Source: a virus
Strand: one strand, 5' to 3'
DNA length: 64,000 nucleotides
Virus record (IMG/VR): IMGVR_UViG_3300023174_000106
Span: 31,821 to 95,820 of that record
How positions within the stretch are numbered: position 1 is the first letter of the stretch; each line of letters starts with the position of its first letter. A program made the translations under genes and the position numbers. Shown one piece after another: positions 5,768-54,478 of the stretch. Under the pieces are notes generated by a model. That model saw only the letters and a program-made list of their open reading frames with translations, was not told the DNA's origin and ran no database searches.

Positions 5768-6598
5768 TTAATAATTGGTCAGATACTTGACATCTGTATA
5801 ATAGGTATTTAACTGATCTTGATTCATATCACTCAGTTGTTTATATAAATCGTTGTTAGATTTAAAGTATGGGTTTTTGTCGCTGGAATCAGATCCACGA
5901 CAATGTTCAACATGATATACAAATCCTTTATCAAGATGGGTAACCATAGTATCAAATTTTATGAATCGTTCATATCGTTCACGATCTTCTGGACCATATG
6001 AGATAAAATGTTCATTTTCCCAACCATACTTTTTATATGTGGAAGTATTAAAGAACTGACAGTGACCGTATTCCGCAATACAATCCGAATAATCGTGAGA
6101 GGTAAGTTCCACAAGTGACCCTTGGTTTAATAACTTTTCTCTACCAGATGTGTTAACTTTCTTTTGAAACTTGCCTATTGCAAATGGATAAACTAAATCA
6201 TGATTTTGTCGGATGATCTTTTTGTACGCTTGTAGATATGATTCTATTGGAAGAATTACATCTGCATCATAATTAACTGTTATTGTTGTGTTTGATAACG
6301 ATAACATTCGGTTTAAGTATCTTGTTCTATGAAACGAGTTATCTGGTACGTTTTGATGAATGTATGTTACGTCATCTTTGATTACCGATGGTATAACCGC
6401 TTCTTTTGAACATTCATATACGATGATATTTGTTTCAAAATTACGACGTAAATATTCATATACAATAGTGAAGTTTTTCTTTCGGTCTTCACTTTCAATA
6501 CAAACGGGTATAATAAATGTACAATCTTGTAATGGAATTAAACCATCTGTGATTGTTTTCGCTTTTTGTATTGTTTGAATTTCTTTCGGAATTTTCAT
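5768..6598 (-). CDS. Glycosyltransferase, GT2/GT7-like
   Basis: The start is set at the ATG at 6598, which overlaps the stop of the upstream fucosyltransferase by ATGA; the frame is open further back but that part only shadows the other gene. The product (about 276 residues) has TFIIPVCIES at the front, a DxD-type motif VNYDADVILP in the middle, and near the C-terminus GWENEHFISYGPEDRERYER, the G-x-E-D-x-E-R acceptor-side motif of GT7-like and chondroitin-synthase-like domains. It probably adds a hexose or hexosamine to the same glycan as its neighbours. Confidence 0.7.
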   Translation of the reverse strand: MKIPKEIQTIQKAKTITDGLIPLQDCTFIIPVCIESEDRKKNFTIVYEYLRRNFETNIIVYECSKEAVIPSVIKDDVTYIHQNVPDNSFHRTRYLNRMLSLSNTTITVNYDADVILPIESYLQAYKKIIRQNHDLVYPFAIGKFQKKVNTSGREKLLNQGSLVELTSHDYSDCIAEYGHCQFFNTSTYKKYGWENEHFISYGPEDRERYERFIKFDTMVTHLDKGFVYHVEHCRGSDSSDKNPYFKSNNDLYKQLSDMNQDQLNTYYTDVKYLTNY

Positions 6599-7410
6599 AT
6601 TACAATCCAACCGGGAACATATAAATCTTTTGTGTTTAACGGAACATTTGGACCAAACCATCGTGATGGAGCAATAACTTTTTTATTTGTATTTACATTT
6701 AACCACGCACCCCACCAACTAAATGTACTGTTAGCAATAATATTATGATTACATAGTGTCATAAGACACATATCAACAAACTGATTGTGAGATTCTGATA
6801 TAAAAAAGTTATCACTTCCTACAAATGTAGACTTTGCCCATTCAATATCATCAGATACAACAATGAAATTGTACGATTTATCCGTGAAATGACTTAATGC
6901 ATTTGTATAATAGTTTAAATCACATGTGCCGTGATGTTTATATTTTAAATAATCGCCTCGACGAACATGGATTGCAACCGTTTCATATTCTTGTTTATCC
7001 TTGAGATATGACTTTGCAGTATTAATGATTTCTGGTCTAAACGTGAATTCTGAACGTACCGATGATTCAATGTGTTTAAAATACTTTTCCGTTTGAAAGT
7101 ATCCATTTAAATGTACATTATCTCCCGTGTTAAAAAATTTGGGAATAAAATGATAGTTAGAATATTCTTCATTGATAATATTATAATTTTCATCACAATG
7201 TAAGGCCGACAATTGAAATGGCTTTGTTAAAACCAATGTATTTTTATTGATTTCTTCGTCGTCTGTAAAATTATTCCATGAAATTTTATTACCATTATAG
7301 TAGTTAATTCCATATAAACAGTTTTGTTTAGTTGCAATACCCATTAATGATGCGTATTGAAACATTTGATTACCAAACCGTCCATTCGTTCCAATAGTTA
7401 TTGTGATCAT
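6595..7410 (-). CDS. GT11 alpha-1,2-fucosyltransferase
   Basis: The 271-residue protein is a typical GT11 enzyme. It begins with the GDP-sugar-binding-like GRFGNQMFQYAS (about residues 10-21), has the diagnostic H-V-R-R-G-D-Y motif near residue 128, and ends with the conserved NSTFSWWGAWL and APSRWFG blocks. GT11 enzymes transfer L-fucose from GDP-fucose to galactose in alpha-1,2 linkage, forming an H-antigen-like structure. It overlaps its neighbours on both sides by ATGA. A GDP-mannose 4,6-dehydratase at 40145-41374 could help make GDP-fucose, although no GDP-fucose synthase is seen in this window. Confidence 0.9.
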   Translation of the reverse strand: MITITIGTNGRFGNQMFQYASLMGIATKQNCLYGINYYNGNKISWNNFTDDEEINKNTLVLTKPFQLSALHCDENYNIINEEYSNYHFIPKFFNTGDNVHLNGYFQTEKYFKHIESSVRSEFTFRPEIINTAKSYLKDKQEYETVAIHVRRGDYLKYKHHGTCDLNYYTNALSHFTDKSYNFIVVSDDIEWAKSTFVGSDNFFISESHNQFVDMCLMTLCNHNIIANSTFSWWGAWLNVNTNKKVIAPSRWFGPNVPLNTKDLYVPGWIVI

Positions 7411-8060
7411 GTTGCTCTATAATTGTCTTCTGTTGAGAATTCATTATTATATCGTTTATTATCTTCTCTCTGTTTTTTAATTGTTTTATTATGAAACAAT
7501 GACAACTCTTCTATCGCCGGAATACGAGTAAATTCTTTAAATCCTACAATTGTTTCATGTAATTTACGATCCCACTTAATATTAGGTAAGTTTTTGTAAA
7601 TACGTGATTGATAGTCTGGCCAATTAATACGACCATTGTCATCAACTCGCCATCCGTAATTTCTAACATCTTCTTGAGTAACTCCATAAAATGCATTAAC
7701 TCTAGGAACCCAAAACATTTCACATGATGGATTTGATTTTAATAATGTGTATAAGTTTACTAACAATATTTCATTAGGAAGTTCATCTGCATCTATTTGA
7801 AATACATATTCACCATCACATTGTCGTGTTCCATAAGTTTTGTGTGCACCATAATCTTTATTGAGATGGTGTGCAACCAATTTAACACCAACTACTGATT
7901 GATATTCATGTAATACTTCTAAAGTAATTGGATCGGTAGAATAATCATCTAATACTACAATTTGATTTCCGTCTGAGTACTTTAATAATAGAGATAAAAG
8001 GGTGCGCAATTGTGCACCCTCATTATGACATGTAACTAAATAAGATATAAATGGTATCAT
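7407..8060 (-). CDS. Family 2 glycosyltransferase
   Basis: The 217-residue protein shows a compact GT2 catalytic domain: ISYLVTCHNEGAQL at the N-terminus, IVVLDDYSTD (about residues 33-42), and YVFQIDADELPNE (about 91-103) with the DxD motif. WDRKLHETIVGF in the C-terminal third resembles the acceptor-site region of LgtB/WaaE-like enzymes, where a conserved K-x-H-E is common. No membrane segment is present. It overlaps both adjacent genes by ATGA, so it is translated with the glycan operon. Confidence 0.85.
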   Translation of the reverse strand: MIPFISYLVTCHNEGAQLRTLLSLLLKYSDGNQIVVLDDYSTDPITLEVLHEYQSVVGVKLVAHHLNKDYGAHKTYGTRQCDGEYVFQIDADELPNEILLVNLYTLLKSNPSCEMFWVPRVNAFYGVTQEDVRNYGWRVDDNGRINWPDYQSRIYKNLPNIKWDRKLHETIVGFKEFTRIPAIEELSLFHNKTIKKQREDNKRYNNEFSTEDNYRAT

Positions 8061-9376
8061 ACCGATATCTTAGAAACTGGTGGAAGTGATGGAAGTTTTA
8101 ATTGTGGAATCACAATTTTTTGTTCAATTGCAAATTGAGGAACGTATTTGTCAAGAATTCCATGTAGTACTTTATCCATAGATTGTGTAGAAAAAGATTC
8201 AGCATTTCGTTTAGCAAGTTCCAATGCGTTTGTTTTCGTTTTGTGATTCAGACTAAAATAAATCTGTTTCATACGTTCTTCTGCCAAACTATATGATACT
8301 GTAAACCATGCTGATTCTTTGATTAACCATTGATTTACAGATGCCGGATTGATTGTATCAACTTTACCCGGCAATAAACATTCTTTATTGGAATTCAAGA
8401 AATCCAAATGTCCACTCCAATCAGATGCAAGAATTGGTTTACCACTGAGCGAGGCTAACAACAGAGGATGCCCAAATCCTTCACCGTGTGTAAAATTTAT
8501 ATGACACTTCACTTTTTCATGATTGAAAAGTGCATTCATTTCAGTGTCAGTAAGTTCTCCATGAATCAAATATATGTTAGGCTTATCACCTTTAATTTGT
8601 GATTCAATTGATTTGATTTTATTTAATATTTCATTTTTATCTATCTTGGAATAATTAACACCACTTGTTTTTAAGATCAAACATGGTTTTTGAATACGAT
8701 CTTTAAATACATTAATAAAGGTTTTAATCAAGTTGCCAATATCTTTGCGGTCATGATATGGATTTGAATGTGTCCATTGACCAACAAACAAAAATGCAAA
8801 TGACTCTGGAATTGTTGACATAATTTGTTCAACCGATTGAACCTTTTCATTCGTAATTTTATATAGATCGGTATTGGCTCCCCAGAAACACACTTCCATG
8901 GGTTTTAGGTTACGTAGTTGTTCTTTACGTCCACTTCCGTCTTTATATTCCTTAGTATAGTCTGCATCATCAAATACCTTCTTGGAATGACGAGATGTAA
9001 CAATGTTCATGTCCATTTTGTTTAGACCTTCAATCCATTCTCCTGCAGCTGCCGTGGTTTCAATTCCAGCCGTCATTCCAATATTGTACTTGCCAATAGG
9101 TTTAAACTCATTTGGAATTGATATTTGAATAAACAGATCTGGTTGACGGTTAATAGGTTCTTTCAACATCTTATCAAATAACGCAAGGTTGAGTGGATCG
9201 TTATAATCCAAATCATCTTGAAAACGTTTCACGGGATTTGCACCCCACTTGGTGTTTGCAATTCTTAAATCGTACTTATCGTAACGAAGAATACTTTTAG
9301 CAACATCTTTTGCCCAGTCACCGTAGCCACTTCGACTAAAGACTGGTCCTTGTATAACACATAACGGTTTACTCAT
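8057..9376 (-). CDS. Glycosyltransferase, GT4-like
   Basis: I use the ATG at 9376 (MSKPLCVIQGPVF), which has GGAA seven bases upstream, in preference to a TTG four codons earlier. The product of about 439 residues has a GT-B layout: an N-terminal domain with SRSGYGDWAKDVA, and a C-terminal domain with FVGQWTHSNPYHDRKDI and the donor-site block GEGFGHPLLLASLSGKP followed by ASDWSGHLDF. These motifs match GT4 retaining transferases. The gene starts two bases after the stop of the dUTPase gene. Confidence 0.8.
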   Translation of the reverse strand: MSKPLCVIQGPVFSRSGYGDWAKDVAKSILRYDKYDLRIANTKWGANPVKRFQDDLDYNDPLNLALFDKMLKEPINRQPDLFIQISIPNEFKPIGKYNIGMTAGIETTAAAGEWIEGLNKMDMNIVTSRHSKKVFDDADYTKEYKDGSGRKEQLRNLKPMEVCFWGANTDLYKITNEKVQSVEQIMSTIPESFAFLFVGQWTHSNPYHDRKDIGNLIKTFINVFKDRIQKPCLILKTSGVNYSKIDKNEILNKIKSIESQIKGDKPNIYLIHGELTDTEMNALFNHEKVKCHINFTHGEGFGHPLLLASLSGKPILASDWSGHLDFLNSNKECLLPGKVDTINPASVNQWLIKESAWFTVSYSLAEERMKQIYFSLNHKTKTNALELAKRNAESFSTQSMDKVLHGILDKYVPQFAIEQKIVIPQLKLPSLPPVSKISV

Positions 9377-9377
9377 A

Positions 9378-9953
9378 TTAATTTCCAAAAAGTTTGTTGT
9401 CTCTTTCTTTAATCACTTCACTATATTTTTTAATGTTAGTATCAAAATTTGCTTCTTTTATTTTAAGCAAATCTTCAATAGTTTTTCCTGATGTAGTTGG
9501 TGTTGTAGTTGACTTGTTTATGTCAGTACTTCCAAATCCACCAACACCACGTTGAGTCGAATTCAAATCATCAACCTCGATAAAACCTCCTACTGCGGTG
9601 CCACATCCTTCTATAATAATTTGAGCAATAGCGGTTTCTTTATCATCCTTAATAATTGGTAATTTAACGGGTTTATCACCTAGATTGATAAGGGCAACTA
9701 GTATTTCTCCACGATAGTCACTATCAATAACTCCTGCGAGAACGTCAATACCATATTTCACAGCAAGTCCACTACGAGGTGCGACTCGACCATAAAAACC
9801 TTCTGGAATAGCCAATGCAATATCGGTCTTAAAAGCCTTACGTTCACCCGGCTTTAGTTCGTATGATTCTGTAGTGTACAAATCATAACCAGCAGCACCA
9901 ACGCTTCCTTTGTTAGGAATAACCGCTTTATCAGATAGTTTTTTTATATTCAT
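9378..9953 (-). CDS. dut: dUTPase (dUTP diphosphatase) with C-terminal extension
   Basis: All five motifs of trimeric dUTPases are visible: AAGYDLY (motif I, about residues 20-26), PRSGLA (II), GVIDSDYRGE (III), KETAIAQIII (IV, variant of G-D-R-I-A-Q) and RGVGGFGSTD (V). The enzyme hydrolyses dUTP to dUMP and PPi, which keeps uracil out of DNA and feeds thymidylate synthase (46022-46885). About 45 residues follow motif V, first Ser/Thr-rich and then charged and probably helical, which is longer than the usual 150-residue enzyme. It is embedded between glycosyltransferase genes and overlaps the next gene upstream by four bases. Confidence 0.95.
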   Translation of the reverse strand: MNIKKLSDKAVIPNKGSVGAAGYDLYTTESYELKPGERKAFKTDIALAIPEGFYGRVAPRSGLAVKYGIDVLAGVIDSDYRGEILVALINLGDKPVKLPIIKDDKETAIAQIIIEGCGTAVGGFIEVDDLNSTQRGVGGFGSTDINKSTTTPTTSGKTIEDLLKIKEANFDTNIKKYSEVIKERDNKLFGN

Positions 9954-10921
9954 TCTATTTCCTTTTTTACTTTTTCAATATCTATTTTTCCAAAATTAAC
10001 TCCCATACAATTATCAGGTTGTGAGTGTCCAACGTATTCTTTAGTGGTATGAATACTAAATGGATTACATGGAATAAAGTTTTGTAATGTATAGTCCATT
10101 GCTTTAATCAATTCATTACACATATGTTTTGAATTTAATCCACCTTCGTTCATGGCCCATTTACGACCTTCTTCACCACGTCGTATACGTTCTTCATTTG
10201 GGATTAGATACCAATACATCATTGCTTCAGCGATATCACGACAATCTACCATGTCGTCAAAAATATATGGAGTTTGATTACTTCCATGAGTATCCAATAC
10301 CTTTGGCCAAATTGGCTTTGCCCAAACACCATGCTTCTTATACTTTCCAATGTTATTGGTAGCAAATTCCTTAGTAAATTCTACTGGGTTTCCATCATCA
10401 TCCATTTGACCGATTTGATCTTGAAGTCCACCTGTTACATTAACAATTACAGGTGTTCCCGCCATAATTGATTCTGCAATACTCAGACCAAATCCCTCAT
10501 TACTTGAAACATTAATTGTAACATCTGCCATATTGTACATTAAGTTCATGTCATTTGAACTAATTTTTTGGTTTGAAAAATAAACATCATAATCGTAACA
10601 AAGTGATTCTTTAACCGCTGGAAGATCTGTACCATGTCCAGCTTGACCAATAACTTCTGTATGAAGAACCAAACAAACTTTTTTAGACTCTTCTTTTGGA
10701 AGACTATCGCAGAATATACGATATGCCAAAATTACATTTGATACTTGTTTGCGTTTGACATTACGACTATTAAAAAATATAATGTAGTTATATTCATTAC
10801 CCTTAAAGAATTTCTTTACACCTTCTGAAAAGATTTTATCTGTTTTTTCAATGGGTTTGAATACCTGACTATTAATTCCATGAGGTACATAATGTAAAAG
10901 TGTTTTTCCTTTAACTGACAT
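9950..10921 (-). CDS. GT4 glycosyltransferase, C-terminal (donor-binding) half
   Basis: The 323-residue product begins near YVPHGINSQVFKP, the usual junction into the second Rossmann domain of GT4 enzymes, and contains FNSRNVKRKQ and the donor block NEGFGLSIAESIMAGTPVIV with the conserved E-x7-E spacing. It has no N-terminal acceptor domain; that half is encoded separately just upstream (10923-11474) in another frame. A clear ribosome site (AAGGAG, ten bases before the ATG) precedes it. The two polypeptides probably assemble into one enzyme. A sequencing frameshift is the main alternative. Confidence 0.8.
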   Translation of the reverse strand: MSVKGKTLLHYVPHGINSQVFKPIEKTDKIFSEGVKKFFKGNEYNYIIFFNSRNVKRKQVSNVILAYRIFCDSLPKEESKKVCLVLHTEVIGQAGHGTDLPAVKESLCYDYDVYFSNQKISSNDMNLMYNMADVTINVSSNEGFGLSIAESIMAGTPVIVNVTGGLQDQIGQMDDDGNPVEFTKEFATNNIGKYKKHGVWAKPIWPKVLDTHGSNQTPYIFDDMVDCRDIAEAMMYWYLIPNEERIRRGEEGRKWAMNEGGLNSKHMCNELIKAMDYTLQNFIPCNPFSIHTTKEYVGHSQPDNCMGVNFGKIDIEKVKKEIE

Positions 10922-10922
10922 A

Positions 10923-11474
10923 TTAAGCGTTCTCCTTTATGATATTACCGTTGTTATCTAGATCACCATAAATTGTGGTACAATTGTTTGGTCCTAATAC
11001 CCACTTGTTAATATTGTATGTTTGTTTGCTAATGCTAAATAATGTATCACAACTTTCATAAAATGGTTTATTCCACATAGGATATGGTAGATCATCCCAG
11101 ATGTTTAAATATGTAAGAGGAATCTTCTTTCTAATTTCACGTTCAATCGCATACAACCATGTCCAATAACGTGGATCGGTAAAATGCATTATTGCATCGG
11201 GATTTTCACGTGCCATAACAGCGTATAGAAAATCTTCATTACCATAACCGGCTACTGGATACAAAACAAGAGATGCATCTTTGACGTTTGTACTTTTTTG
11301 CATTTCCTCACTTGCGTTAATTGATTTACCTTGATCCGGGTGATTTACTGCCCCTGCGATTTGTACCCAATCATAATGGTGAATAGTTCCCATGATCAAT
11401 TCACGACTCATAGTAGATACACCACTATGCATACGCATATCATCGCTCAATAATAAAATTTTCTTTTTTGCCAT
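10923..11474 (-). CDS. GT4 glycosyltransferase, N-terminal (acceptor-side) half
   Basis: The 183-residue protein starts AKKKILLLSDDMRMHSGVST, like the first domain of GT4 enzymes, and continues with IMHFTDPRYWTWL and LTYLNIWDDLPYP, ending soon after the inter-domain segment (FSISKQTYNINKWVLG). It stops one base before the ATG of the gene for the matching C-terminal half. Alone it lacks the nucleotide-sugar site. See the C-terminal half at 9950-10921 for the proposed two-chain enzyme. Confidence 0.75.
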   Translation of the reverse strand: MAKKKILLLSDDMRMHSGVSTMSRELIMGTIHHYDWVQIAGAVNHPDQGKSINASEEMQKSTNVKDASLVLYPVAGYGNEDFLYAVMARENPDAIMHFTDPRYWTWLYAIEREIRKKIPLTYLNIWDDLPYPMWNKPFYESCDTLFSISKQTYNINKWVLGPNNCTTIYGDLDNNGNIIKENA

Positions 11475-11488
11475 AACTTTTAATAAAT

Positions 11489-11716
11489 TTAATCGGTTGT
11501 ACGTTTTATACTTGGTAGTATCGTTTTTTGACTTTCTTGTGATAACGAAGAAATGTTATAGTTATATACTGTGTTTCTAAAAGAATCATCTTGAAGATAC
11601 AAATATAACGAACGATTTACCAACTCTTGAAAATTAAATTTTTGGTTTATATTTAATTCTTTAAATTTAATGTAAGCGTCATTATCAACTTTAACGCTAG
11701 TTAGTACTTTTGACAT
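11489..11716 (-). CDS. Small ribbon-helix-helix-like DNA-binding protein
   Basis: The start is the ATG at 11716; the longer open frame upstream is low-complexity and covers another gene's end. The 75-residue protein opens with a short strand, VLTSVKVDNDAYIKFKEL, then two helices (FNFQELVNRSLYLYLQ), the pattern of Arc/MetJ ribbon-helix-helix repressors. The C-terminal 25 residues are polar. It is the first regulator-like gene of the leftward sugar operon, and a 12-base-arm palindrome lies two bases before its start codon, so it probably represses its own promoter and the downstream genes. Confidence 0.6.
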   Translation of the reverse strand: MSKVLTSVKVDNDAYIKFKELNINQKFNFQELVNRSLYLYLQDDSFRNTVYNYNISSLSQESQKTILPSIKRTTD

Positions 11717-11717
11717 A

Positions 11718-11745
11718 GTTTTGTATATACGTATATATACAAAAC
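11718..11745. promoter_or_regulatory. 28-bp palindromic operator candidate
   Basis: Arms GTTTTGTATATA (11718-11729) and TATATACAAAAC (11734-11745) are perfect inverted repeats around a central CGTA, itself palindromic. It lies directly upstream of the ribbon-helix-helix gene start at 11716 and would cover its core promoter. Such proteins bind palindromes as paired dimers, so autoregulation is likely. It has no T-run on the side expected for a terminator of the upstream gene. Confidence 0.6.
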
Positions 11746-11759
11746 AAAAAACTTTATTT

Positions 11760-12677
11760 TTAATTGTCTTCGTTTTCGTCTTTAGTTTCTTTAGCGTCAC
11801 AATTGGTTTTGTAATGAGTACAATACTTACAATTTTTCTTTGCCTTACCCGGAACCTTTGGATAATAACCATCTTCCTTATATGTTCCTTCAGAGGTAAA
11901 ACATTCGTCGATAAACGATGTAAATGTCACTAATGATTTGGCAACATAATTTTTGGAGTTTGATGGTTCAAATATTTGAATTCGACTTTGTGGAAAATTT
12001 GAATTTTCATACAACTTGCGTTTCAAAATGAAGAACTCAACATCAATTGCATCAAGAGGAACATTAAACTGTTTTGAGTAAAATGCCTTATATAACAACA
12101 ATTGAGAATATTTGCTTTCATCTGCGGTTTGATATTTGTTCCAACCCATTGCACTTGTTTTAAAATCCCAAATTTTATATTTGCCGGTGGTTTTGTCACG
12201 TAGAATCAAATCAACATACGCAATAAACCGAATATTATTCTTGATAGGAACATCCAATGGAAGTTCAACCCCAATGAATTCATATTTTCTACTGGGGAAA
12301 TACTTGATTCGATTTGCGGAACTACTAAACGTTTTCAAGATATCTTCACCGTCAAATAGAAATTCAGTAATATCATCATCTGTAAATGGATCTTTGATAG
12401 TATGTTTTTCTTCGGCCAGAATTTGATTAAATTCGTCACGAAACTTTTTAATCAAATCAATTTTATCAGAGATTTCAGGCCCTTCTGTATAAAGTGATTT
12501 GATATACTCTTGAATTGTATTATGAATTGCGGTGCCAAAACAAGTACTTAAACTTGCTTCATATACCCGTAAACCCTTTAAATAATTCAGATACCAACTG
12601 TGTGGACACTTGAACCACCCAGAATATTGTGAAAAGCTTACGGTTTTTTTATTTTTTTCTTCTATAATCTCAGACAT
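11760..12677 (-). CDS. PD-(D/E)XK nuclease, RecB/Cas4-like with cysteine cluster
   Basis: The 305-residue protein fits the PDDEXK_1 (RecB-like) superfamily. CPHSWYLNYLKGLR near residue 24 and FGTAIHNTIQEYI (about 46-58, holding the active-site histidine) precede FIAYVDLILRD (catalytic Asp) and YKIWDFKTSAMGW (D-x-K). SQLLLYKAFY is the usual Q-x-x-x-Y motif. The C-terminus has CKYCTHYKTNC, which with the early cysteine could hold an Fe-S cluster as in Cas4 and AddB. It is probably a DNA exonuclease or end-processing enzyme for phage replication or recombination. It starts the leftward transcription unit, with its own promoter at 12684-12712. Confidence 0.85.
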   Translation of the reverse strand: MSEIIEEKNKKTVSFSQYSGWFKCPHSWYLNYLKGLRVYEASLSTCFGTAIHNTIQEYIKSLYTEGPEISDKIDLIKKFRDEFNQILAEEKHTIKDPFTDDDITEFLFDGEDILKTFSSSANRIKYFPSRKYEFIGVELPLDVPIKNNIRFIAYVDLILRDKTTGKYKIWDFKTSAMGWNKYQTADESKYSQLLLYKAFYSKQFNVPLDAIDVEFFILKRKLYENSNFPQSRIQIFEPSNSKNYVAKSLVTFTSFIDECFTSEGTYKEDGYYPKVPGKAKKNCKYCTHYKTNCDAKETKDENEDN

Positions 12678-12726: not shown

Positions 12727-13482
12727 ATGAAAAATATAATATTCACGCTCTTGTTTGGCTTTAATGTTTATGCTAATGGTGTTTTTTATGTTCAAAAAAC
12801 AACAGGTGATGTTGTTTTAGAAAATGTGACAAATAATGTACTTTCAACGAATGCGCCGACCATTGGACAAACCTTTATGGTCAACGGTCAAAACTATGCA
12901 TTTAAAACATCAACAAATTCGGATGTAACTGTGGCATTTTCAAATGATGTCTTTGTTAAAATTAAAGAATCAACTCATATTACCGTTGATAACTTTGATC
13001 AAAGTTTCATTAATACAAATTCATTGCCCGAAAAGGCCAAGTATGAAACCTATTCCAAATCGGTATCGTTAATTGAAGGTGAACTTGATGTTTATTCCAA
13101 TCAAGAAGGTAATTCTGAATCTATTGATAATATTAATACTAAACTTGCATCAATAATATTGTCAAAAGGTAAATTTGTAATACAGGCTGATGATCGAACC
13201 ACCGTTATTATTATTCTTGATGGATCCGCTGTTATTTTAGACAATTCTTCCAAACGAAAAGAAAATGTTAAAGCTGGTCAAACCGTGGTAATTGTTCCTG
13301 CTCCAAAGTTTCAAGGTCGTGGTGTTGAAACTATGAGACATGGCAATATTTTTTCAATTAAAGAAACTGTAAATGGTGATGCTGAATCATATCTATTAGG
13401 TGTAAATTCGGTTGTTGATGCTTCTAAAAATGTTAGATTTTGTATAATAGATAAAACCATCCGTGGTATTAAAATTAATTGA
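12727..13482 (+). CDS. Secreted FecR-like domain protein
   Basis: The 251-residue protein starts with a signal peptide (MKNIIFTLLFGFNVYANG; basic n-region, hydrophobic core, A-N-G end), so it should leave the cytoplasm. The body is rich in beta strands with FecR-like phrases: TTGDVVLE, then TSTNSDVTVAFSNDVFVKI, SVSLIEGELDV, and IILDGSAVILDN followed by VKAGQTVVIVP. It lacks the transmembrane and anti-sigma parts of true FecR. Similar domains are common in Verrucomicrobiota. It has no sugar or replication neighbour that explains it. A host-envelope or surface role is a guess. Confidence 0.6.
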   Translation: MKNIIFTLLFGFNVYANGVFYVQKTTGDVVLENVTNNVLSTNAPTIGQTFMVNGQNYAFKTSTNSDVTVAFSNDVFVKIKESTHITVDNFDQSFINTNSLPEKAKYETYSKSVSLIEGELDVYSNQEGNSESIDNINTKLASIILSKGKFVIQADDRTTVIIILDGSAVILDNSSKRKENVKAGQTVVIVPAPKFQGRGVETMRHGNIFSIKETVNGDAESYLLGVNSVVDASKNVRFCIIDKTIRGIKIN

Positions 13483-48495: not shown

Positions 48496-49284
48496 ATGGA
48501 CTATAAAGACTTTTTTAAACATTTATTTGAAGCTAAAAAACCAAACGGTGATGAAGGAGACGATTGGGTTAGACCAGGCAGCGATTTGGAACCGGGAATG
48601 AAAATTGGAGGAACGAATTTTCCTCATGGATTGGGTTATCCAAATTATAGACCCAAACACAACGATGATGAAGATTTTAAAGAAACCGCACATATTGATC
48701 ACATAGTTGATGTTCCATATGAACACTCAGATCAAGATGATAAAAAACGTACCGGGGTTCTTTATAAGTACATAAAAGATAAAATGCCAGAGTTTTATCA
48801 AAAGTTTCAGTCTTACATAGACCGTCTATTTGCAGAATACGAAAATTATTGGTCCATGCACCATTGGTTAATTAGTTTTATTGATTTGGCAAAAACCGAT
48901 CCTTCTCATAAGAATATCCCCGATGAACTTAAAAACCTAAATATTACAGATCAGGATATTGAAAATGTTAAAAAAATACACGATACGTATCATAAATTGT
49001 ATAGTTTGATACATCATCGTAATGATTCTCACAATGAATTGAATTATCCGTTATACGTCAGTTTATATGATATTACAAGAGCACTAGGAGGATATGAGGA
49101 AGGTGGTTGGTGGTATGATAAATATGAATTGATTGATACTATCCCAATACGTACTCCAAGTGAATTAATACCTACCGCAGAAAAGTTATACGGAAAAATA
49201 GGTAGAAATTTTAATGGAAAACCTAGTATTGTTGTTGAAAAAGAAAGTGGCAGTCAAGAAAAAGAACCACCACACTATAGTTAA
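48496..49284 (+). CDS. YKDFF-tagged protein, probable virion-internal
   Basis: The 262-residue protein starts MDYKDFFKHLFEAKKPNG; L-F-E fits the L/I-x-E rule for T4-type prohead cleavage. The rest is acidic and His-rich (DHIVDVPYEHSDQDD, SLIHHRNDSHNELNYPLYVS) and has a GGYEEGGWWYDKYE stretch. No enzyme motif is known to me. It is the only plus-strand gene between about 41.4 and 52.7 kb, which fits a late gene set apart from the metabolic operon. Its end overlaps the RNA ligase by four bases. Confidence 0.6.
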   Translation: MDYKDFFKHLFEAKKPNGDEGDDWVRPGSDLEPGMKIGGTNFPHGLGYPNYRPKHNDDEDFKETAHIDHIVDVPYEHSDQDDKKRTGVLYKYIKDKMPEFYQKFQSYIDRLFAEYENYWSMHHWLISFIDLAKTDPSHKNIPDELKNLNITDQDIENVKKIHDTYHKLYSLIHHRNDSHNELNYPLYVSLYDITRALGGYEEGGWWYDKYELIDTIPIRTPSELIPTAEKLYGKIGRNFNGKPSIVVEKESGSQEKEPPHYS

Positions 49285-50300
49285 TCGTTGTATTTAAGTT
49301 CGAATGGCTCACTAATAATCTTACCAGACAAACGTCCCTTTAGAGTCTCACTACAAGTCTCTACAGTAGGACGAATTACAATACCCTCAGCTAGATTACC
49401 ATTCTCATAAACGAGATTGTTGGCAAACTCCTGCAATTCTCGAAGAGTCTTGTTGAAAGAAGTACCATCGTCAATGGTTTCAACAACAGGAATATCATTC
49501 ACATCACAAAATCTCAAAAGCTCATTACGATCAAGATACTTGTAGTTGTCAATGTCAAATAGATTGAATGCACGAAACTGAATATCCTTAACACCAAGTA
49601 GATTTCCTTGAATGCCAGGTCCGTAAACCTCACCTTGAATGGCAAGATTACGACCGTCATTCTTCAACTTGTTCTCAAGATCATACTTTCTAGCAACAAC
49701 CCAAAAACTATTCTTATCGTCTTCCTTGAGTTGGTAGTTACGACTACAAACGCCAAATCCAACGTCATCCTTGTAGAAGTAAGTTCCGCTACTTCCATCC
49801 ACCTTCATGGTGATGTAATATGACTTACCAGCAAGTTCCTGAAGGATCTCTGGATTGTTCTTAATGTTGTCTTCATCCGTCTTACGAAGATATGAAGGCA
49901 TCAGACCATATACTTGTCCAGAAAGTTGTGCGGAAAGAGGCTTTTCGTAGTGTTTGGCATAAACGTATTGACTCACATCACTTCCGATAATACCCGGTTC
50001 AGAAAACACAACGGTATCGTGACCAAGCTGCTTGAACAGAGTCAACGGAAACGCAATTCCTTGACTGATTTGTCCACGAAGTTTGACGGTCTTGATACGA
50101 AAGTGTTTGCTGCTCAAGAATTGATACGGTGGCTTGTCTTCAAGAACGCTATCAATGCAAATGTAAATGCACATATCTCCTTGCTTGAACTCACCTTTCT
50201 TGATGCACACTTGCCATCCCTTGATGGTAGCCAGTTCAAGAGCATCCGCATTTGGATGTGCTTTAACTTCCAAAATCTTTTCAATTGTCGCAACTCTCAT
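49281..50300 (-). CDS. RNA ligase, Rnl5/DraRnl-like
   Basis: The 339-residue protein has an N-terminal OB-like domain (about residues 1-110: EKILEVKAHPNADALELATI, KGDMCIYICIDS) and a C-terminal nucleotidyltransferase domain with motif I TMKVDGSSGTYFY (Lys about residue 165), FGVCSRNYQL (motif Ia/III region), AIQGEVYGPGI (motif III/IIIa), LAEGIVIRP (IV) and GRLSGKIISEPFELKY (V). The order, OB domain first, is that of Deinococcus DraRnl. It would seal RNA nicks with ATP. A terminator lies between it and the DUF262 gene, and it has its own promoter. Confidence 0.85.
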   Translation of the reverse strand: MRVATIEKILEVKAHPNADALELATIKGWQVCIKKGEFKQGDMCIYICIDSVLEDKPPYQFLSSKHFRIKTVKLRGQISQGIAFPLTLFKQLGHDTVVFSEPGIIGSDVSQYVYAKHYEKPLSAQLSGQVYGLMPSYLRKTDEDNIKNNPEILQELAGKSYYITMKVDGSSGTYFYKDDVGFGVCSRNYQLKEDDKNSFWVVARKYDLENKLKNDGRNLAIQGEVYGPGIQGNLLGVKDIQFRAFNLFDIDNYKYLDRNELLRFCDVNDIPVVETIDDGTSFNKTLRELQEFANNLVYENGNLAEGIVIRPTVETCSETLKGRLSGKIISEPFELKYND

Positions 50301-53389: not shown

Positions 53390-54478
53390 TTAGTTTTTTA
53401 AAACTTGCCAGAACAACTTTTTTTGTTGATCGGTAGTCAGATTCTTACCATCAAGCAATGAAAATATCATTGATGATCTGTTAGATTCTGAATATGATGA
53501 TATTACCTTTTGAGCTTGTTCTTTACGGGTTGATAATGATTTTAATTGATTATCAATGAATGATTTAAATCCGTCAACAATTTTGTTTACTTCTTTAGAA
53601 GCATCACATACTTGAGACGCATATCCTCTTACCATTTCAAAACACTCATAATCAAAAGTTTCAGTCAACTTAGATGCGAACTCTTGATATGATGGTTTAT
53701 CATAGTTAAAATACAAATCTAAAGTATTTTCCAAAGTAGCTTCAGACTTAAATCTGTGTTTAATCAGATAATCCATAGCCTTTACCTTGTGAAGCATTTG
53801 GTCATTCTTTGAATAAACAACCACACCTTCCTTACCTCTCCATTGATCAACATCCTTTAACAGATCTTGAACACTAGAAAAAGTATAAGTAGCAGGACGT
53901 TTGAAATCATACTTCTTAGCCATAGCATCCAACATATCTTGTTGTGCAAGTGAATAGTTGATATGATTAATCAAACCAATCAACTTCCACATAGGTTCAT
54001 CACCATACGATAACACAATTTTATTGATTGGAGACAGCCATTCCCAAATGATAGAATAGTTCCAAGTATCATTATTATCCTGTAACTTACTTAGAATAGT
54101 TGACTTGAACAATTCTAACTCATATCCGTTAGCCATAGTAGAAGCATCAACAGTTCCACGGGTACGTAGAATATATTGACCATTATACTTGCTAACAGTT
54201 AAAGTGCTACCGTCCAATTTTTCAACTACAGTTGCATTCTTTAGTGAAGTAGGAACAGGGGATAAATCAGGCTGTTCTGACCAGTTAAAGAATTTTGGAA
54301 ATGATGCACTGATCAATTCTCCATTATAATTCCATACAGATGAACGAAAGTGTAAATTGTCATTTTTCCACTTTGCGCCTATATGTTTTGGCTGTACCAA
54401 ATATACAACTTCTCCAGAAATAATATGTTCGTGAACCATAAACGATTCACGATCAATTGAGGAAATATCAATCTTCAT
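53390..54478 (-). CDS. T4 RNA ligase 1-like (Rnl1) protein
   Basis: The 362-residue enzyme has the Rnl1 layout: FFNWSEQPDL, the adenylated Lys in VVEKLDGSTLTV (motif I, about residue 88), ILRTRGTV (motif Ia/III), WEWLSPINKIVLSYG (IIIa), WRGKEGVVVYSK (IV) and LHKVKAMDYL (V, K-x-K), then a helical C-terminal domain. Rnl1 reseals tRNAs cut by anticodon nucleases. It has its own promoter and terminator, so it is expressed alone. With PNK, cREC and the DraRnl-like ligase it completes an RNA repair set. Confidence 0.88.
   Translation of the reverse strand: MKIDISSIDRESFMVHEHIISGEVVYLVQPKHIGAKWKNDNLHFRSSVWNYNGELISASFPKFFNWSEQPDLSPVPTSLKNATVVEKLDGSTLTVSKYNGQYILRTRGTVDASTMANGYELELFKSTILSKLQDNNDTWNYSIIWEWLSPINKIVLSYGDEPMWKLIGLINHINYSLAQQDMLDAMAKKYDFKRPATYTFSSVQDLLKDVDQWRGKEGVVVYSKNDQMLHKVKAMDYLIKHRFKSEATLENTLDLYFNYDKPSYQEFASKLTETFDYECFEMVRGYASQVCDASKEVNKIVDGFKSFIDNQLKSLSTRKEQAQKVISSYSESNRSSMIFSLLDGKNLTTDQQKKLFWQVLKN

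Follow-up and report, generated by a model that had tools for sequence, protein, structure and literature searches.

The locus analyzed here raises the question of whether a small phage protein of the ribbon-helix-helix (RHH) type controls its own gene, together with the glycosyltransferase genes behind it, through a palindrome at its own start. The DNA comes from an IMG/VR virus record of 95,820 bases; the window, the whole stretch that was analyzed, comprises bases 31,821 to 95,820 of that record (64 kb), and coordinates below are those of the window.

The palindrome and its gene run

The features on which the argument depends are the following.

11718..11745, no strand: proposed operator, a 28-bp palindrome with 12-bp arms and spacer CGTA, unique in the record
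11724..11737, no strand: conserved operator core TATATACGTATATA, a 14-bp perfect dyad, kept in close relatives and fitting the family motif
11489..11716, minus strand: gene for a 75-aa RHH-type regulator, assigned from family alignments, PHROG Arc-like matches in relatives, and AF2 with Foldseek
11760..12677, minus strand: PD-(D/E)XK nuclease gene (PF12705), heading the run, 5′ of the site and neighbor of the RHH gene in most relatives
10923..11474, minus strand: GT4-like glycosyltransferase, N-terminal half, next after the regulator; its homolog follows the RHH gene in relatives
9950..10921, minus strand: the same glycosyltransferase, C-terminal half (PF00534, E 3.5e-12); the halves are fused in relatives
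8057..9388, minus strand: glycosyltransferase further down the run (phrog_2170), with a homolog in relatives
7407..8060, minus strand: family 2 glycosyltransferase of the same run (PF00535)
6595..7410, minus strand: family 11 glycosyltransferase of the same run (PF01531)

As an earlier note on this DNA had described it, GTTTTGTATATACGTATATATACAAAAC at 11718-11745 is a palindrome with perfect 12-base arms. That note placed it two bases upstream of the ATG (11716-11714) of the minus-strand gene; the distance is one base (11717). In the 95.8-kb record the palindrome is present once, and a single copy fits a local autoregulator. Arms of at least 12 bases with a spacer of at most 4 appear in 6, 6, and 3% of simulated 64-kb runs (Markov order 2, 3, and 5, respectively), and TA-rich DNA is partly self-complementary, a caveat that applies to this palindrome. 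When we scored the 60 nt 5′ of 121 genes in the record, the site ranked first with a palindrome score of 12, the runner-up having 9.5. It is the strength of the palindrome and its position abutting the start codon, taken together, that place it beyond chance. The dyad axis of the core TATATACGTATATA lies 1 bp off the axis of the outer arms. The palindrome is unchanged in the near-identical phages L002 and L003; taken alone, this carries no information.

The RHH gene had been supposed to lead the operon, but it is second in it. A nuclease gene on the same strand stands first and ends 43 nt 5′ of the RHH gene; the run starts at 12677 and is divergent from 12727. The divergent gene (12727-13482) has a FecR-domain match and a signal-like N-terminus, which is unusual for a phage. 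Downstream, the run goes on with a dUTPase gene and further glycosyltransferase genes. To compare the locus among relatives, we grouped 80 loci into 38 lineages at 90% identity. Of 157 loci, some of them on contigs counted twice, 150 have the start of a homolog of the 10923-11474 gene no more than 300 nt beyond the RHH gene; four of the other seven have the glycosyltransferase further on, behind an inserted stretch, and in three the contig ends there. Counted by lineage, this conserved glycosyltransferase is directly downstream in 36 of the 38, with an inserted ORF in the other two. Endonuclease-like or zinc-binding-like ORFs are found between the two genes in L072, L077, L163, and L164. In the window, the glycosyltransferase of about 475 aa of most lineages is split at 9950-11474 into ORFs of 183 and 323 aa; by comparison with the fused homologs, the split in the window clade is a gene fission. 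The claim that the run consists of surface-glycan genes holds in part: the comparative evidence links the regulator to glycosylation genes, but it does not extend to a surface location. A surface glycan is one option for the target of these glycosyltransferases, and DNA is another.

Assignment of the regulator family

The reading frame of the RHH gene stays open through the palindrome up to an ATG within the nuclease gene, so it is the family alignment that places the start at 11716. When the window protein was scanned alone, Pfam gave no match and PHROG gave weak matches, to families of unknown function only. Relatives are plentiful: two overlapping scans of viral contigs yielded at least 575 and at least 558 confirmed places. 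A scan of bacterial genomes yielded two contigs, one of them binned as Flavobacteriales with the gene order seen in phages. Members of the family conserve T-[ST]-[VI]-K-[VLI] near the N-terminus, then [YF]..FK, and then Q-[DK]-[LF]-V-[ND]-[RK]. The Arc-like repressor family phrog_3180 matches 5 of 18 members (best E 8.7e-6), the window protein having no convincing score. In the family-wide scan RHH_4 matches weakly (E 0.09), and the family profile has ParG as its top PDB match, aligned in the RHH register and weak as well (E 0.17).

The AF2 model of the window protein (pLDDT 73) has an extended N-terminus and helices at 12-25 and 29-42, and that of the shorter relative L090 (mean pLDDT 86) has an extended N-terminus and, besides helices at 13-26 and 30-43, a third, short one; the RHH strand is unformed in the monomer model. 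With the window model, Foldseek returned a single weak match, to the RHH domain of PutA. Most of the 13 matches of the L090 model, each of them weak (E ≥ 1), are RHH proteins, and they include CdbA, the MazE6 N-domain, CopG, MatP, AmrZ, and ParD2, all of which we take to be of this type. Conserved S/T and K alternate in the predicted strand, an arrangement compatible with a two-stranded sheet in the major groove. Judging from these alignments and models, RHH is the clear best assignment of the family, each homology test being weak and none significant for the window protein. The description of the gene as RHH-like is supported by the phrog_3180 matches in relatives, the models, and Foldseek. 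We also considered a type II toxin-antitoxin pair and rejected it, as no small toxin family gave a match beside the gene and its constant neighbor is the glycosyltransferase of about 475 aa. The family has several hundred members, to which Pfam is blind and of which PHROGs recognize a part, and it is apparently undescribed.

The DNA polymerase encoded in the window matches those of T4-type phages, the closest named one being that of Microcystis phage Mel-JY01 (44% identity). On sequence grounds, the replicon is a T4-like phage and not a bacterial chromosome. Boxes of the TTGACTT type at the −35 position stand at several gene starts in the window, for example upstream of 49281-50300 and 53390-54478; they suggest that the host uses sigma-70 promoters, in contrast to immuto (Flavobacterium phage vB_FspM_immuto_2-6A, MW353175.1), whose promoters are of the Flavobacterium type.

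The site across relatives and its rival explanations

The upstream regions of the 38 lineages have TATATA-NN-TATATA in common, in which NN is mostly TT in immuto-like lineages, whereas lineages near the window have CG or TG. The exact core TATATANNTATATA lies within 60 nt upstream of the RHH gene in 21 of the 38 lineages and in none of the 222 upstream regions that served as controls, taken from the same contigs; dinucleotide shuffling produced it in 0.22 of 38 on average and in 2 at most (300 trials). The remaining 17 lineages have degenerate cores only. Palindrome scores upstream of RHH genes exceed those of control genes (p about 2e-20), a gap that TA-preserving shuffles shrink, though not to zero (mean 8.4 vs 6.0). 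Moreover, when a weight matrix was trained on other clades and run over both strands of the record, the window site came out on top, at 20.3 bits; the next distinct place is intragenic and scores 15.3 bits.

We also looked at 59 loci that had been found through the nuclease. The exact core is present in 31 of the 53 with an RHH gene and in 0 of the 6 without one, the loci being partly non-independent, and in every case it lies a few dozen bases 5′ of the RHH gene. In L040-type loci an extra gene separates the nuclease from the RHH gene, and the site moves with the latter. Because the cores in these loci stand only before RHH genes, and because of the L040-type arrangement, the site belongs to the RHH gene, with which it is strictly associated. 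The outer arms behave differently from the core. L066 and L069 (61% and 51% protein identity) are without the outer GTTTT/AAAAC arms and retain GTATATATACGTATATAC, the next relatives carry TATATGCGCATATA, and the clade of L024, L076, and L129 has a different long palindrome, with 15-bp arms in L024. By this comparison, conservation covers the inner 14-18 bp and not the whole 28-bp palindrome, so that the proposal of the 28-bp palindrome as regulatory site survives for its inner part and not for its outer arms. Before the regulator's gene the family keeps a symmetric putative operator, as is characteristic of autoregulatory RHH repressors.

The palindrome could instead work as a leader RNA hairpin, tuning translation of the RHH protein or mRNA stability without protein-DNA binding. 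The window leader does form the 12-bp hairpin, at 1 nt from the start codon and with an MFE of −13.3 kcal/mol, and the leader of L094 folds far better than its shuffles (z −4.6), but most leaders of the family, including that of the window, fold no better than shuffles (z about −1 to −1.7). Across the family, 1 to about 35 nt lie between site and ATG, and the center of the conserved core is only 2 nt. The core is kept as letters: agreement between dyad partners in 27 distinct sites does not exceed what column composition would give (p 0.39). Conservation as symmetric letters is more in keeping with a dimeric protein that binds DNA than with an RNA hairpin, and we regard the hairpin as quite unlikely. 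That the element is mainly a phage promoter, an AT-rich late or host-type −10/−7 box whose symmetry is incidental, also seems unlikely to us. Many immuto promoters hold TATATTTA or CTATTTATAA, which are similar to the TT-centered core, and similar cores stand before the terminase gene and an orphan gene in immuto. The window core TATATACGTATATA, however, is without TATTTATA and unique in the record, the exact core occurs solely at RHH genes in the 59 loci and at none of the 222 control genes, and the gap between core and start codon is only a few bases in the window and 2 nt at the immuto terminase gene. A promoter is only a partial rival, as operator and promoter may overlap.

The short intergenic gap right after the nuclease stop codon, together with the TA-rich letters, would be in keeping with a terminator of the nuclease gene or with a chance product of TA-rich DNA. 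No terminator was recognized at the site, which has no U-tract; shuffles that keep dinucleotides almost never yield the core, and the site tracks the RHH gene and not the nuclease gene. These shuffles and this association contradict such an origin, which we therefore rejected as hardly credible.

Proposed regulation and comparison with known systems

The reading that we favor, with a probability of roughly 0.78, is that RHH dimers on the core negatively autoregulate the RHH gene and the glycosyltransferase genes downstream. Dimers would bind the AT-rich dyad core directly before their own gene, perhaps cooperatively, with two or more of them next to each other along the 28 bp. Once bound, they would repress a promoter at or near the site and so limit both the RHH protein and the glycosyltransferases behind it; repression rather than activation, like the binding and the promoter concerned, is what we infer. 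Some points weigh against this reading: the homology tests are weak one by one, 17 lineages have degenerate cores only, the site partly resembles AT-rich promoter elements of relatives, no sigma-70 promoter was recognized at it, and transcription of the RHH gene may start upstream of the nuclease gene. The "autoregulated switch" of the earlier note is accordingly retained in its comparative part, a conserved putative operator before the regulator's own gene with glycosyltransferase synteny, but without the RHH gene at the head of the run. As a whole, the family of viral RHH regulators with its proposed operator is real, well supported, and ordinary in kind. For the glycosylation genes that environmental T4-like phages commonly carry, it supplies a regulator that can be put to the test at a defined site.

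The immuto group comprises the only cultured phages that we found with the RHH gene. In immuto the homolog is QQO91768.1, annotated as hypothetical, for which we found no published study. The order nuclease, RHH, glycosyltransferases is that of the window, and transaminases and an epimerase follow the glycosyltransferases. A perfect 20-bp palindrome, TATATTTATATATAAATATA, stands before the ATG of QQO91768.1; its core letters differ from those of the window, and the immuto genome has look-alike sites elsewhere. Since cultured immuto has the nuclease-RHH-glycosyltransferase unit, a test is feasible with a laboratory phage and host.

Phages of the immuto type may hold further targets of the regulator. 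Immuto and two relatives (L145, at 1280 and 1564; L147; L148) have two exact TATATATTTATATA sites about 280-300 bp apart, conserved inside an otherwise divergent non-coding stretch before an orphan gene of about 140 aa. In L146 (1002), L151 (860), and L155 (715), a TATATANNTATATA site is followed after 2 nt by the start codon of the gene for the terminase large subunit. Both the orphan-gene sites and the terminase sites are candidates for regulation; no such extra sites were found in the 95.8 kb of the window phage. One could go further and see an old, fixed regulator-glycosyltransferase unit in T4-like phages of diverse hosts, extended in the immuto type to the terminase and other genes as a timing switch. 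We consider this doubtful; if true, it would link glycosylation to late functions.

Finally, we compared the window protein with known RHH regulators. In the literature searched, a limited collection, we found no RHH regulator of phage glycosyltransferases. The Arc repressor of phage P22, which regulates its own operon, is a phage RHH repressor of the type proposed for the window protein, but its context is one of immunity genes, whereas that of the window is glycosylation. Two plasmid regulators that came up in these comparisons, ParG as the best PDB profile match and CopG in Foldseek, are RHH proteins that each repress their own operon; they serve plasmid partition and copy number, and their operator sequences differ from the window site. 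A review (PMC5569661) describes SvtR of the archaeal virus SIRV1 as an RHH autorepressor that uses imperfect inverted repeats to repress its own promoter along with a few viral genes. It differs from the window protein in virus, sequence, and site, binding having been shown for SvtR and the window operator being predicted, and the two are alike in being small viral proteins of the RHH type.
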